A program made the translations under genes and the position numbers. From assembly GCA_020073485.1 (NCBI GenBank), contig JAIQFB010000006.1, forward strand, positions 1 through 64,000: a DNA stretch of 64,000 nt, read 5' to 3'. Origin of the DNA: Terriglobia bacterium (GTDB lineage Bacteria > Acidobacteriota > Terriglobia > Acidiferrales > UBA7541). Shown one piece after another: positions 2,145 through 49,804 of the stretch (position 1 is its first letter; every line of letters starts with the position of its first letter). Below the pieces are notes generated by a model. It saw only the letters and a program-made list of their open reading frames with translations, made no database searches and was not told the DNA's origin.

Positions 2145-2354
2145 CTTGCCGCAGATTTGCGCGAACCCTATCCTCCCGCCGTTTCGGAGAATGAAGAAGG
2201 CATGCTATGGCTGGAACGTTGAAAGAGGCCGGGCGGTGAAACTGGGCACGCCAAAGAGGCGAATAAGAAGGCGAAAAAGTTACTGCCTAAACTCTGGGCT
2301 ACTGCTTATTCACTGCCTAAACAGGTCCGATTAGAGCCCGATCATTCCACTTAG
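2145..2354 (+). pseudogene. Decayed coding remnant with internal TGA
   Basis: In the frame that starts at 2145 the translation has protein-like composition (LAADLREPYPPAVSENEE, later HAKEANKKAKKLLPKLWATA). It is interrupted by TGA at 2220-2222 and preceded in frame by TAG at 2139-2141. This looks like a gene eroded by frameshift and nonsense mutations. The family is not recognised. It lies just upstream of the tRNA-Ser fragment in the A+T-rich patch. Confidence 0.25.
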
Positions 2355-2409: not shown

Positions 2410-2453
2410 GCGATTTTCAAGACCGCCGGATTCAACCGCTCTCCCACCCCTCC
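2410..2453 (-). pseudogene. tRNA-Ser(UGA) 5'-half fragment (repeat copy 1)
   Basis: Read on the minus strand from 2453, the sequence begins GGAGGGGTGGGAGAGCGG. This is a tRNA-Ser acceptor 5' strand and D-arm. It continues to an anticodon stem GCGGT, loop CTTGAAA (anticodon TGA) and stem ATCGC, which pairs with one G-U. Nothing after that matches a variable arm, T-arm (no GGTTCGAATCC) or 3' acceptor strand. Forty bases (2414-2453) recur at 4390-4429 with three mismatches. The intact tRNA-Ser gene is not in this window. An att-site remnant is the most economical reading. Confidence 0.75.
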
Positions 2454-2701
2454 GTCTGCCTAGTTTAACTGGCAAGGCCCCAGGGTTCCAACAACGAAGA
2501 CTGGGGCATCCAACAATTCAAAATCATACAAAGCCCGGGCCATCCGCTTTGCGACGAACACAATTTGATTCACTCAGAACGAGTTCAGGTGTATAAGGTG
2601 CCCATCTGGTTGGTCAAGACGGAGATCGTTGGAATCGCTCCTGCCCTCGGGCTGCAGCACAAGACTTAATACTGCCCCGTGAGAGGATATGGAGGAGTGC
2701 C

Positions 2702-3103
2702 ATGATGAAGACAAATAAGTGCAGGACCCTTTGCATCGTAATTGTTGGCCTGTTGGCGGTTTCCGTTCCGGTGTTCGCGCATCACGGTGGTGCGTCGTAC
2801 GATACGTCGAAAACGGTCACGGTGAAGGGAACGGTGACGGAATATATTTGGACGAATCCTCACGTTCTCGTGAAGCTCGACGGCAAGGACGACAGCGGCA
2901 ACACGGTGCATTGGGTTGTCGAAGGTCAAAATCCGGTGTCCATGATGGCAATCAGCTGGACCAAGAATACATTCAAGCCAGGGGATGAAGTCGAAATTGA
3001 CGCCATGCCGGCCAAGAATGGTAATCCTGTCGCGTTCCTGGGGACCGTTAGCCCAACCGCCCCGAGAAAACGCATCGTGATCAATGGCAAACAGTTCCAG
3101 TAG
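2702..3103 (+). CDS. DUF6152 family secreted protein
   Basis: 133 residues with a strong ribosome-binding site (GGAGG) before tandem ATG codons; starting at the second ATG (2705) is equally good. An N-terminal signal peptide ends VFA, and predicted signal-peptidase cleavage leaves a mature protein starting His-His-Gly-Gly. The small beta-rich domain that follows (VKGTVTEYIWTNPHV, then HWVVEG, FKPGDEVEI) matches the DUF6152 pattern, an OB-fold-like periplasmic family of unknown function. Its paralogue near 44.5 kb shares the HHG start, the NPH motif and the LKPGD turn. It is followed by an uncharacterised secreted protein, a pairing repeated at the second locus. A metal-binding role through the N-terminal His is an inference. 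Confidence 0.85.
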   Translation: MMKTNKCRTLCIVIVGLLAVSVPVFAHHGGASYDTSKTVTVKGTVTEYIWTNPHVLVKLDGKDDSGNTVHWVVEGQNPVSMMAISWTKNTFKPGDEVEIDAMPAKNGNPVAFLGTVSPTAPRKRIVINGKQFQ

Positions 3104-3238
3104 GAATTCCTCAAGCAAGCGAACTTTCCGCAACGACTAGCGGCCCGAGCCTATCACCGTTTGGCCGGTGATTTCGATTGTCTTAGTCGCTAGTAGATTC
3201 ACAGGATTGGGACCGAAACTGGCGGAGGGATTTCATAA

Positions 3239-4189
3239 ATGTCAAAGCGCTTGGTGGTCTCGGTAGTTGCCCTGCTTGCAGGATTGACGATCTCTCCTAG
3301 TCTTTCTCCCATCCTGGGCGCGCAAACCGCTTCGCCCATAGCTGCGGCGGGGCAAGAGGCGAAGCCGGATAAATGGAACAGCATCCCGCCGATCAAACCC
3401 GCATACGCCGGAAAGAAGTCAGCCCCGGCTCCGCGCCGCGATCTATCCGGGGTATGGGACGCAGCTGAGGCGGACGGGGGACGCCAGCCGAGCGGCGCGC
3501 TGGAACACGTGGCGCTGACAGCACCCCGGGGACAGGGCGTCGAAGGGGGGCGGCCCGACGAGACGGGCATAATGCGTCCCCTGCATTACACGCCCTTAGG
3601 CCTGGAAGCGCTAAAGGCCAATAAGCCCTCTGGGCCGAGCGTCAGACAAGTCCCCGCCGCACTCGCGAATGATCCGTTGGATCAATGCGACCCAATCGGG
3701 TTTCCTCGCATGGAACTTTACGAATTGAGAACCATTGAGCTCGCTCAAACCGCGAACCAAGTGATTTACTTGAATTCATTTTATGGTAACTGGCGCATCA
3801 TTTGGACGGATGGACGAGAACTCCCCAAGGATCCGGAGCCGCGCTGGAACGGGTACTCCGTCGGAAAATGGGTGGACGACTACACTTTCGTGGTCGAGAC
3901 GGTCGGGCTGAATCCAAGAAGCTGGCTCGATCACGCGGGCCGTCCGCACAGCGAAGATTTACGGGTGGAGGAACGGTTTCACCGGGTGGACCATGACAAT
4001 ATGGAACTCACGGTGACGATCTTCGACCTGAAGATGTATACGGAGCCCTGGCAGGGTCTTAACAAGTTCCCCCTCCACTTGCAACCACCCGACTTCGATA
4101 TGCCGGAGTTGATCTGCTCACCAGTAGATATGGCGGAGTACAATAGGCAGGTTGGGAACGCCGTCCTTCCTCCGTCCGAAAAGAAGTAG
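3239..4189 (+). CDS. Secreted protein of an uncharacterised 'DLSGVW ... IWTDGR ... HSEDL' family
   Basis: 316 residues, ATG with GGAGGG upstream and a signal peptide ending LGAQ. Conserved blocks shared with the paralogue at 43.4-44.3 kb are DLSGVW (about residue 70), CDPIGFPR, R-x-IWTDGR, SVGKW with FVVETVG, WLD-G-HSEDL, and ERFHRVDHD. The near-invariant polar residues (D, H, E, R) suggest an enzyme or a ligand-binding beta protein, but no characterised homologue is known to me. It is probably periplasmic. It lies 135 bases after the DUF6152 gene, in the same orientation and inside the tRNA-Ser repeat pair. Function is not assigned. Confidence 0.8.
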   Translation: MSKRLVVSVVALLAGLTISPSLSPILGAQTASPIAAAGQEAKPDKWNSIPPIKPAYAGKKSAPAPRRDLSGVWDAAEADGGRQPSGALEHVALTAPRGQGVEGGRPDETGIMRPLHYTPLGLEALKANKPSGPSVRQVPAALANDPLDQCDPIGFPRMELYELRTIELAQTANQVIYLNSFYGNWRIIWTDGRELPKDPEPRWNGYSVGKWVDDYTFVVETVGLNPRSWLDHAGRPHSEDLRVEERFHRVDHDNMELTVTIFDLKMYTEPWQGLNKFPLHLQPPDFDMPELICSPVDMAEYNRQVGNAVLPPSEKK

Positions 4190-4389
4190 CAAACTTGAAT
4201 CTTTATTTATTGCTGTGACACTCAAGAGCGCGAGCGCCCAAAACTCGGAGACTGTCGCCAAATTGTCGCTGAAGACCGCACAAAATCAGCAAAGCCAACG
4301 GACTTCATACAATTTCAAGTCGCGCCATCTGACGGCTGGCAAATGGATTTAGTCGAATATTATGTCAGATAACAAAGCATCGATTTAAG

Positions 4390-4429
4390 TTTTCAAGACC
4401 GCCGAATTCAACCGCTCTCGCACCCCTCT
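4390..4429 (-). pseudogene. tRNA-Ser(UGA) 5'-half fragment (repeat copy 2)
   Basis: This 40-base block matches the block at 2414-2453 at 37 of 40 positions and in the same orientation. Read on the minus strand it begins AGAGGGGTGCGAGAGCGG and ends with the anticodon loop CTTGAAA plus one A. Here the match to tRNA stops immediately after the loop: the next bases (CTTAA) cannot pair with the anticodon stem. The two copies bracket the DUF6152 pair, like attL/attR of a small integrated element. Chance is very unlikely at this identity. Confidence 0.75.
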
Positions 4430-18561: not shown

Positions 18562-18924
18562 CTAGCTGGGGCGAGCTACGGCGGGCGGAGCGGGCCAATC
18601 GGCCGGAACGAAATCGACGCCCCAGAAATGCGGCGCAGGAGTGAGGAACTCGACGCCGACGCGCTGGCCCTTCTCGGTGGCATCGCCGAGAAACACGATG
18701 CGGCTTTCCTGCTCTTCCTGCGTGAAGGGGTTGGTGAGAACCACGATGGAGTCGATCGTGAGCGGCTGGTTCAGGTACATCAATCCGCCGTGCGCGTTGA
18801 TGACGATGGTCTCGCAAGCTTCGCGGAAGCGCCGGTTGTCGGAGTTCTTTCCCGCGACCACCACGCGCACGCGCATGAAGACCCGTGTACTGCGCCGAAC
18901 CTTGTCGAAATCCGTTTCGGGCAT
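18562..18924 (-). CDS. PilZ domain protein
   Basis: 120 residues from an ATG with GGGAG about 12 bases upstream; the frame extends to a GTG 7 codons earlier. The PilZ pattern is visible: RRSTRVFMRVRV (RxxxR-like c-di-GMP binding arm, near the N-terminus) and VINAHGGLMYL (the [D/N]xSxxG-like block). A beta-barrel end follows (RIVFLGD...GVEFLTPAP). It may bind c-di-GMP. The Ser of the second motif is replaced, so binding is uncertain. Single domain, cytosolic. It lies near the deaminase on the same strand but without an obvious functional link. Confidence 0.75.
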   Translation of the reverse strand: MPETDFDKVRRSTRVFMRVRVVVAGKNSDNRRFREACETIVINAHGGLMYLNQPLTIDSIVVLTNPFTQEEQESRIVFLGDATEKGQRVGVEFLTPAPHFWGVDFVPADWPAPPAVARPS

Positions 18925-19110
18925 GGTAAGACCATGCTCCCGCACATCGGGGTGGGCGTCAATCGGGGCGTCGCCCAGGTGTTTCCGTATTGCAAACTGG
19001 GCTTTCTGCTTTTCCCTTTCGCTTGGCAGCCGCTTCTTTCTTTGCGCTGGTACAGGCGGAACGCGCTATGATTCGTCGGAATCTTCACCACCGGATTACA
19101 ATTATTGGAC

Positions 19111-48145: not shown

Positions 48146-49804
48146 ATGACTGAAAAGCTTCCATCGGTAGTAATCGTCGGCCGCCCCAATGTGGGCAAAT
48201 CGACTATTTTTAACCGGCTGACCGGCACGCGGCGCTCGATTGTTACCGACGAGCCGGGGATCACGCGCGACCGCATCTATGGCACGGCGACCTGGCAGGG
48301 GCGCACGTTTGAGGTGGTCGACACCGGCGGGATCGTGCCGGACGACAAGGCTGCGATCCCGCGCGAGATTCTGAGGCAGGCGCAGATGGCCATTGAGAAT
48401 GCGTCGCAGCTTCTGCTGGTCGTGGACGCTCGTGCGGGGTTAATGCCGCTGGACATGGAATTGGCGCAATTGCTGCGTCGCACGGGAAAGCCTCTGGCGA
48501 TTCTGGCGAATAAAATCGATACACAGATGCAGGAATCGCTCGCGGCGCCGTTTTACGAGCTTTCCAAGGAAGTTTATCCGGTTTCGGCGGAACACGGCTA
48601 CGGATTCGATGAATTGCTCGAGGCCATTACGGCTCCAGGCAGGCTGCAAACTCAACCCGATTCGTCCGATGTAGAGGAAGAGTCCGAATCTTCTTCTGGC
48701 GGGCTCCACGCAGTGCCCCAACCCGTTGACGCCGCAGGCGCTTCGCAAGAAGAACTCGAAACCAAGAACGAAATCGCGACACAGATCAACGTGGCCATCA
48801 TCGGGCGGCCCAACGTCGGAAAGTCGACTATGCTCAATCGCCTCGCGGGCGAGGAGCGCTCGATCGTTTCGGACATACCGGGAACGACGCGCGACGCCGT
48901 GGATACCATCGTGAATCGCGGCGAACGCACCTACCGTTTCGTGGATACGGCCGGGATTCGCCGCAAGGGCAAGACGAAACTGATTGCCGAAAAATTGAGC
49001 GTGGTCATGGCGCGGCGGCATCTGGAACAGGCGGACGTCGCGCTGTTGATCGTGGACGCGAGTCTGGGCGTGACGGCGAGCGACGCCAACATCGCCGGTT
49101 ACGCGGAACAGTCCGGCTGCTCGGTGATCATCGTCATGAACAAGTGGGACCTGGCGCTGGAAGCCGCGGCGGAAAAGGCAGCGCGCGAATTGAAAAGCCA
49201 GGAAACCAAGCCGCACGTCGTCGAGTTTTCCTATGGGCGGGCTGCAAGTACAGCCCGCACCCGCAGCCGCAAGCACACCTCGGTGGTGCGCAAAAAAGCG
49301 TTTACCGGGAAAGTGAATCCCGCGCAGCTGGTCGAGGACTACGAAGCGATTGTGCGCACGCGCTTCAAATTTCTCGACTACGCCCCGATTGTTTTTCTTT
49401 CGGCGAAGACCGGCGAGCGCACCGAAAAATTATTCGACCTGATCAACCGCGTGGCCGACGCGCGCCGCCGGCGCATCTCGACCGGCGAGTTGAACCGCTG
49501 GCTCGCGGCGGTGGATTTGGACCGCGGCACGTCACCGGCCGCGCGCAAGGTGAAGATCTACTACGTCACGCAGGCGGGGGCATCGCCGCCGACGTTCATC
49601 CTGTTCACCAATCAATCCAAGCGGTTGCATTTCAGCTACGAGCGCTTCCTCGAAAACCAGTTGCGCAGGACGTTCGATTTCCTCGGCGCGCCGATCCGCT
49701 TTCTGCAGCGGATGAAGGAAAAGCGCGATCGTGAGCGAAGCCGCGCGCCGGTTCCGGGCCGGCCCTATAAAGGGCGCAAAACGCGTGACCGAAAGCCGAC
49801 TTGA
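48146..49804 (+). CDS. der: Ribosome assembly GTPase Der (EngA), with an internal repeat insertion
   Basis: 552 residues from the ATG with GGAG upstream; about 100 residues longer than typical Der. Two G domains have P-loops GRPNVGKS (12-19 and 220-227), NKID (first) and NKWD (332-335, second), and the C-terminal KH-like domain. It acts in 50S subunit assembly. Two stretches look extra: an acidic linker (residues about 166-210) and a basic insert after NKWD (about 345-392). Bases 49237-49258 in the latter form a perfect palindrome that also occurs between genes at 19.1 kb, so the insert probably came from an intergenic repeat. Confidence 0.92.
   Translation: MTEKLPSVVIVGRPNVGKSTIFNRLTGTRRSIVTDEPGITRDRIYGTATWQGRTFEVVDTGGIVPDDKAAIPREILRQAQMAIENASQLLLVVDARAGLMPLDMELAQLLRRTGKPLAILANKIDTQMQESLAAPFYELSKEVYPVSAEHGYGFDELLEAITAPGRLQTQPDSSDVEEESESSSGGLHAVPQPVDAAGASQEELETKNEIATQINVAIIGRPNVGKSTMLNRLAGEERSIVSDIPGTTRDAVDTIVNRGERTYRFVDTAGIRRKGKTKLIAEKLSVVMARRHLEQADVALLIVDASLGVTASDANIAGYAEQSGCSVIIVMNKWDLALEAAAEKAARELKSQETKPHVVEFSYGRAASTARTRSRKHTSVVRKKAFTGKVNPAQLVEDYEAIVRTRFKFLDYAPIVFLSAKTGERTEKLFDLINRVADARRRRISTGELNRWLAAVDLDRGTSPAARKVKIYYVTQAGASPPTFILFTNQSKRLHFSYERFLENQLRRTFDFLGAPIRFLQRMKEKRDRERSRAPVPGRPYKGRKTRDRKPT
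49237..49258. repeat. Palindromic repeat inside the der reading frame
   Basis: GCGGGCTG-CAAGTA-CAGCCCGC, perfect 8-base arms, followed by ACCCGC. Loop and right flank match the element at 19111-19128 (GGGCTC-CAAGTA-GAGCCC-GCACCCG). It encodes around residues 364-372 of Der. In-frame insertion of a REP-like element is the likely origin. Confidence 0.75.

Follow-up and report, generated by a model that had tools for sequence, protein, structure and literature searches.

How did two nearly identical front halves of a serine tRNA gene come to bracket a pair of genes in a bacterial genome, and do they mark one mobile element or several? The stretch of DNA analysed here (the window) comprises 64,000 nucleotides at the start of contig C40 in a 46-contig genome, G000, with window base 1 being the start of the contig. 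On its minus strand it carries two 40-base blocks, at 2414-2453 (left half) and 4390-4429 (right half), which sequence pattern and alignment identify as nucleotides 1-40 of tRNA-Ser(UGA). We report that the region 2414-4429 probably represents an eroded integrative element of a family defined by a conserved end, E, lying in a stack at tRNA-Ser(UGA) in which a second element, B, integrated later; based on sequence comparisons, we assign this reading a probability of roughly 0.87.

Two tRNA-Ser halves and the element end E

The original prediction described the two blocks as 5' halves of tRNA-Ser(UGA) in the same orientation, matching at 37 of 40 bases and ending just past the anticodon loop, and the alignments confirmed all of this. 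The mismatches fall at tRNA nucleotides 1, 10 and 25, where the right half has decayed, and identity between the blocks and intact tRNA-Ser(UGA) genes of the same genus ends just past the anticodon loop. A search within the window using the left block retrieved the right one (E-value 4e-13), and with up to three mismatches allowed the blocks occurred at these two places only in the whole 5.05-Mb assembly (reversed-pattern control, 0 matches), while in many relatives the block recurs together with E. Neither ARAGORN nor Rfam called a tRNA at either block, as expected because they are halves. The intact tRNA-Ser(UGA) gene that the original prediction proposed to look for was not detected among the 40 typed of 46 tRNA matches in the assembly, the remaining six (69-75 bases) being too short for tRNA-Ser, and none of the 20 occurrences of GTCTTGAAAA in the assembly was an intact tRNA; since the contig begins at window base 1, the intact gene may lie beyond the contig end. 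Among the relatives, the 5'-half pattern was present at 22 places in 19 of 61 genomes (own genome included), and ARAGORN reported an intact tRNA-Ser(UGA) at 19 of these places, the other three being the two window halves and one place in G009.

It had been proposed that a DUF6152 gene and its partner exactly fill the space between the halves. Both genes are there, on the plus strand, the DUF6152 gene at 2702-3103 (133 amino acids, Pfam) and the partner at 3239-4189 (316 amino acids, no Pfam, PHROGs or PADLOC family), but the interval also contains E, a segment of approximately 175 bp on the minus strand (4214-4389) that was overlooked at first, directly adjoins the right half and is conserved as an outer att arm in 23 of 89 family genomes. 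E carries paired sites (GCGACA..GGCGAC, 4254-4269, minus strand) that are a variant of GTGACA-N5-GTGACA; the same motif is present in integrase 3' ends, and we consider these to be arm-type sites that an integrase would bind. A third, inverted arm-type site, GTGTCAC, is located at 4215-4221 (minus strand), and at this place two GTGACAC sites persist in the same-genus genome G005. Moreover, there is a 10-bp inverted repeat in E with its left arm at 4364-4373 (minus strand) and the other arm at 4324-4333; this repeat, with its paired changes, flanks a conserved 30-base middle of E (window 4324-4373).

A DNA search with E gave 27 places in the 23 genomes, 19 of which have a single copy, and after omission of three partial places (L258, L259 and L260) a set of 24 oriented places was retained. 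E follows directly after a tRNA-Ser 5' half at 20 of these (UGA at 16 and GCU at 4), and the half is eroded or absent before E at four. That the same E adjoins both UGA and GCU halves shows that E moves, and the use of two different target tRNA genes argues against simple vertical descent. A pattern for the junction between half and E matched 28 places in 25 of the 89 family genomes, which on reading comprised 12 clear junctions of this type, four eroded ones, one half with another end and 11 unrelated places; for two of the 12 clear junctions, in G009 and G118, only approximately the first 20 bases of E are in common and these were missed by the E search. An exact scan of 84,980 species genomes (a scan that may omit records of or near G000 itself) with a 20-base core of E yielded 12 stretches, all with titles referring to Acidobacteria, Acidiferrales/Acidoferrales, Acidiferrum or Terriglobia, and the core was not found in viral contigs.

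The DNA to the left of the left half differs. Positions 1-2413 represent the outer end of element B, which is cut by the contig end and has an open reading frame (5-1756) without family according to gene calls and family searches; this end had no match in the 88 other family genomes. Next to the left half, an 11-bp direct repeat, ACTGCCTAAAC, is present in two copies 30 bp apart (2282-2322, plus strand), candidate arm-type sites of element B. The description of the left DNA as A+T-rich holds in so far as its GC content is lower (0.53 and 0.51 vs 0.59 for the window), but it is only moderately low in GC and not truly A+T-rich. We do not treat the two halves as ends of one insertion: they have unlike ends and are read as two successive integrations at the anticodon loop. 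The interpretation as a small integrated cassette or a stack of insertions that has lost its integrase is thus supported by the comparisons, except that the halves belong to two different insertion events.

The integrase clade and its elements

Using a locally built integrase profile, we detected no integrase in the window cassette, and a search up to 250 bp from its inner half gave no paired arm sites. The right-hand element does have relatives with an integrase, in keeping with the suggested loss, and we infer the mobility of the window cassette from them. In G105 an integrase remnant with the same GTGACA-type pair is positioned just upstream of the displaced half. A longer integrase relative in G019 led to a clade with 22 places in 18 of 89 genomes (cutoff 1e-30), eight of them matching at an identity of at least 65% and seven of these, distributed over six genomes, being near full length. 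Each of the seven extends as far as the 5' end of an intact tRNA-Ser gene (five UGA, two GCU), keeps the integrated frame open to its stop and has the paired sites inside its 3' end. Their aligned ends are 31-34 bp before the tRNA, and the stop codon is 28 bp before it in one case and 4 bp in five, while the frame in G078 extends 14 bases into the tRNA; hence the tRNA-proximal region, where the promoter is expected, coincides in part with the 3' end of the integrase gene. In G065 the eighth match, a remnant of 82 residues, is in a locus without a tRNA; it shares contig and strand with an E and is positioned approximately 2.4 kb inward from it. The layout is repeated in a contig of the viral collection IMG/VR (L325), in which a 358-amino-acid frame ends 13 bp before tRNA-Ser(UGA). 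This contig also has an HTH-like frame upstream of the integrase and a terminase-like gene across the tRNA (names read from the sequences).

The site variants agree within a genome. In G078 the two ends both bear GTCACA; in G104 both bear GCTACA-type sites, and the integrase there is 52% identical, contains a stop and is located at a contig end. In G078 a whole element of 25.4 kb is present on one contig. It begins with the displaced half (49741-49779) followed by E, continues with DarT, DarG, helicase/nuclease-type proteins matching PADLOC models, an ArdC-type protein, a T2SSE protein and a Mutator-family transposase, and ends with the integrase gene (74078-75178; Pfam PF00589, E-value 5.4e-35) and the intact tRNA-Ser from 75165.

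From the parts that can be read directly, i.e. the halves, E, the like sites at both ends in relatives, the position of the integrase and the empty sites (see below), we infer the following chemistry and order of events. In an E-family element, the attachment site would be flanked on one side by E and on the other by an integrase gene reaching up to a tRNA promoter and 5' half. Recombination in the anticodon loop would join the supplied promoter and 5' half to the 3' half of the host, preserving a complete tRNA, and the promoter and 5' half that the host had before would be pushed outward and end up adjoining E. In the window, the right half and E would be what is left over, with the DUF6152 pair as presumed cargo and the integrase and inner sites since lost; the right half is accordingly read as the host 5' half displaced by the E-family cassette. 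Element B, having a different end, would then have integrated likewise into the restored tRNA, leaving the left half, which we read as the 5' half supplied by the DUF6152 cassette and later displaced by element B to the left.

Similar brackets are present in relatives. At eight of the 24 oriented E places a second 5' half or an intact tRNA-Ser is present on the same strand 1.0-8.3 kb beyond E, closed by an intact tRNA-Ser in G083 (3.06 kb), G075 (1.54 kb), G081 (1.04 kb) and G017 (8.29 kb) and by a second half followed by another end in G113 (1.01 kb), G021 (1.59 kb), G117 (6.68 kb) and the window (1.93 kb). Six of the eight, including the window, still have a half that can be recognised before E, with the 5' fragment upstream, as is correct for this polarity; the half is eroded in G081 and absent in G017. 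A ninth bracket, in G078, was found through its integrase. Hence, displaced fragment, element and intact tRNA follow each other on the same strand in G083, G075 and G078, and the layout is partial in G081 (eroded fragment), G017 (E and intact gene without the fragment) and the window (two halves). The cargo includes a Band_7 protein (G083), a PIN protein (G081), a WXXGXW protein (G075), AbiEi/AbiEii (G117) and, between two tRNA-Ser halves in G021, a Pycsar PycTM/PycC pair (L278:18190-19415). Seven of the eight brackets lack an integrase according to the locally built profile, and in the same proportion no paired arm sites were detected up to 250 bp from the inner half; G117 has one poor match to the sites (3 mismatches) and a broken integrase, which has other repeats near it and so is no more than possibly linked to E.

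These small brackets raise the question whether E-family integrases also move integrase-less cassettes (the DUF6152 pair, the PIN toxin, the Pycsar pair, Band_7) in trans. The tRNA-Ser gene would then be a one-way platform in this lineage with cargos piling up on its 5' side, and other strains would repeatedly be the source of a fresh promoter and of nucleotides 1-40 for tRNA-Ser(UGA). We regard this as unlikely, and the integrase-less brackets make it less probable because they are without inner arm sites.

Three further arrangements were observed. On contig C61 of G007 (L202, L203) half/E is 25 kb away from an intact tRNA-Ser and on the opposite strand, the arrangement that an inversion would give; at L200 a tRNA-Ser has E on its 5' side and an integrase fragment on its 3' side; and in G009 (contig C1, L088 2740-10117) a half with a different end is followed by 7.3 kb with NrfD/cytochrome c genes and an intact tRNA-Ser(UGA).

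The tRNA scan, which covered 12 of the 22 integrase loci, placed more distant integrases beside tRNA-Met (L305) and tRNA-Leu (L316), while no tRNA was detected at the scanned loci L303, L304 and L310. In L305 (G071) and L316 (G014) the integrases end beside the 5' ends of the respective tRNAs, and the 5'-side habit may reach beyond tRNA-Ser. A search of plasmids gave one distant integrase only.

Empty sites and the proposed order of integrations

Comparison with related genomes for an empty site, as originally proposed, was informative. Gene X (18565-19065, minus strand; no Pfam family) is taken to have been the original neighbour on the upstream side of tRNA-Ser(UGA): a match to it lies 77-221 bp upstream of an intact tRNA-Ser(UGA) in G003, G006, G018, G027 and G029, and with gene X beside an intact tRNA-Ser in five genomes, empty sites exist. 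Among the 20 E places that are UGA-type or eroded, gene X is on the same contig in eight (G000, G007, G017, G078, G081, G083, G113 and G115), in every case on the outer side of E, on the same strand and 1-15 kb away; the remaining 12, with gene X on a different contig or undetected, are uninformative on the order. Gene X and the right half are 14 kb apart in the window with no further tRNA-Ser half between them, which counts against the reading.

In G005, which belongs to the same genus, an uninterrupted tRNA-Ser with the same upstream sequence occupies the position of the left half (contig C6), i.e. the empty site for element B. Here the DUF6152 pair, with 85% DNA identity to the window, adjoins the intact tRNA-Ser and the right half is absent. 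This would fit a pair that is old and native, with element B as the sole real insertion and the right half with E as a separate small insertion, and related pairs do occur elsewhere. However, the two GTGACAC sites of G005, which resemble the end of E, follow right after the partner gene, and in G003, of the same genus, gene X is directly beside the tRNA, leaving no room for the pair. We consequently find a native origin of the pair improbable. The GTGACAC sites are instead read as a stub of E, and a pair with such a stub suggests that the cassette probably entered before the split between G000 and G005, with G005 then losing most of E. The relatives showed no empty site for the DUF6152 cassette itself, in which its present outer neighbour, a Gfo/Idh gene, would stand beside an intact tRNA. 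The DUF6152 pair has distant relatives elsewhere and could therefore have been captured otherwise; for the pair as it stands in the window, the best reading is an element that has eroded and lacks an integrase, lying in a stack on the 5' side of the tRNA, with cargo as the likely role of the pair.

Another possibility is that the displaced promoter, 5' half and E form a chimeric small-RNA gene that has been retained, so that the repeats are kept for function and are not scars only. Several genomes have preserved both the promoter-like sequence and the half well, and the inverted repeat of E is 91.4% paired with 11 doubly changed cells, a result reached by 0 of 500 shuffles. On the other hand, in 110 of 500 shuffles at least as many pairs had both sides changed, RNAalifold predicted no consensus structure for E, the halves are eroded or missing at the four E places referred to above, and a symmetric protein site would give paired changes too. 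This reading was tested and is not favoured; we judge it very improbable. Finally, an assembly chimera of the metagenome bin, which the start of the window at a contig end and two G005 contigs with 294 bases in common (3 mismatches) at one and the same tRNA might suggest, has a negligible probability given that the half/E junction recurs in many other genomes, including records from several different projects.

On the second of these G005 contigs, the 5' side of this tRNA is occupied by a different integrase, and the population may therefore be mixed. The integrase beside tRNA-Ser in G005 (L085) was considered as an E-family enzyme and rejected, its identity to that enzyme being 32% over 164 residues. 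Its relatives are located on either side of tRNAs; in the available locus sequence none of six 5'-side cases (L123, L126, L127, L128, L136 and L139) has a 5' fragment, and a seventh, at a tRNA-His in G000, has one.

Relation to known tRNA-associated elements

Integron gene cassettes are small cargos without a recombinase of their own that are added sequentially at one site. The window cassette is likewise a small recombinase-less cargo in a series at one site, but the target is a tRNA gene and related elements encode their own integrase. Tycheposons, too, are cargo-carrying elements at tRNA genes that use tyrosine recombinases.

The remark that 5'-half polarity is unusual agrees with Islander, which lists 159 islands with a 5' fragment vs 3760 with a 3' fragment (PMC4383910). 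As described there, the tRNA-gene islands share with the E family a tyrosine integrase, a tRNA that is split and restored, a displaced fragment at the far end and a crossover in the anticodon loop; the window cassette differs in that it lacks an integrase and is shorter than 2 kb, and the Islander filters would reject it (PMC4383910). In archaea, the att site of pTN3-like integrases is a tRNA gene's 5' half, and the restored tRNA is severed from its original promoter, as in the E family (PMC8371274, PMC5495485). Integration of pTN3 disrupts the integrase gene, in contrast to the E family, in which the frame is open to its end beside the tRNA and the arm-type sites and the tRNA promoter region lie within the integrase 3' end. 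One of these sources, a review, states that a similar situation is seldom met in bacteria, citing Williams 2002 (PMC8371274). Front-half polarity is thus known but rare. In the literature searched, which covers few subscription papers, no description of the E family and nothing naming such an element in Acidobacteria was found; a Solibacter paper mentions islands near tRNA genes (PMC3174227).

What our data add is a coherent element family with both ends, an integrase, two target tRNAs, empty sites and eroded remains. Its readable cargo (DarTG, Pycsar, AbiE, PIN) points to one way in which defence genes may build up in soil Acidobacteria, and the family offers a direct test case for how integration at the 5' half keeps a tRNA expressed. 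Island finders that require an integrase would miss its eroded members.

Other tRNA genes show related arrangements. G000 has a 15.4-kb element at a tRNA-His (C35:15755-31280; L224, L130) with a displaced 5' fragment (nucleotides 1-44), an integrase immediately on the 5' side of the intact gene, repeats of the GGGTAC type close to either end and a 3' fragment 5.5 kb away on the other side. At L123 a tRNA-Thr is flanked by an integrase on each side. Also in G000, a tRNA-Arg(CCU) is preceded by its own 5' half with 137 bp between them (C31:95906-96160; L018), a very small remnant.
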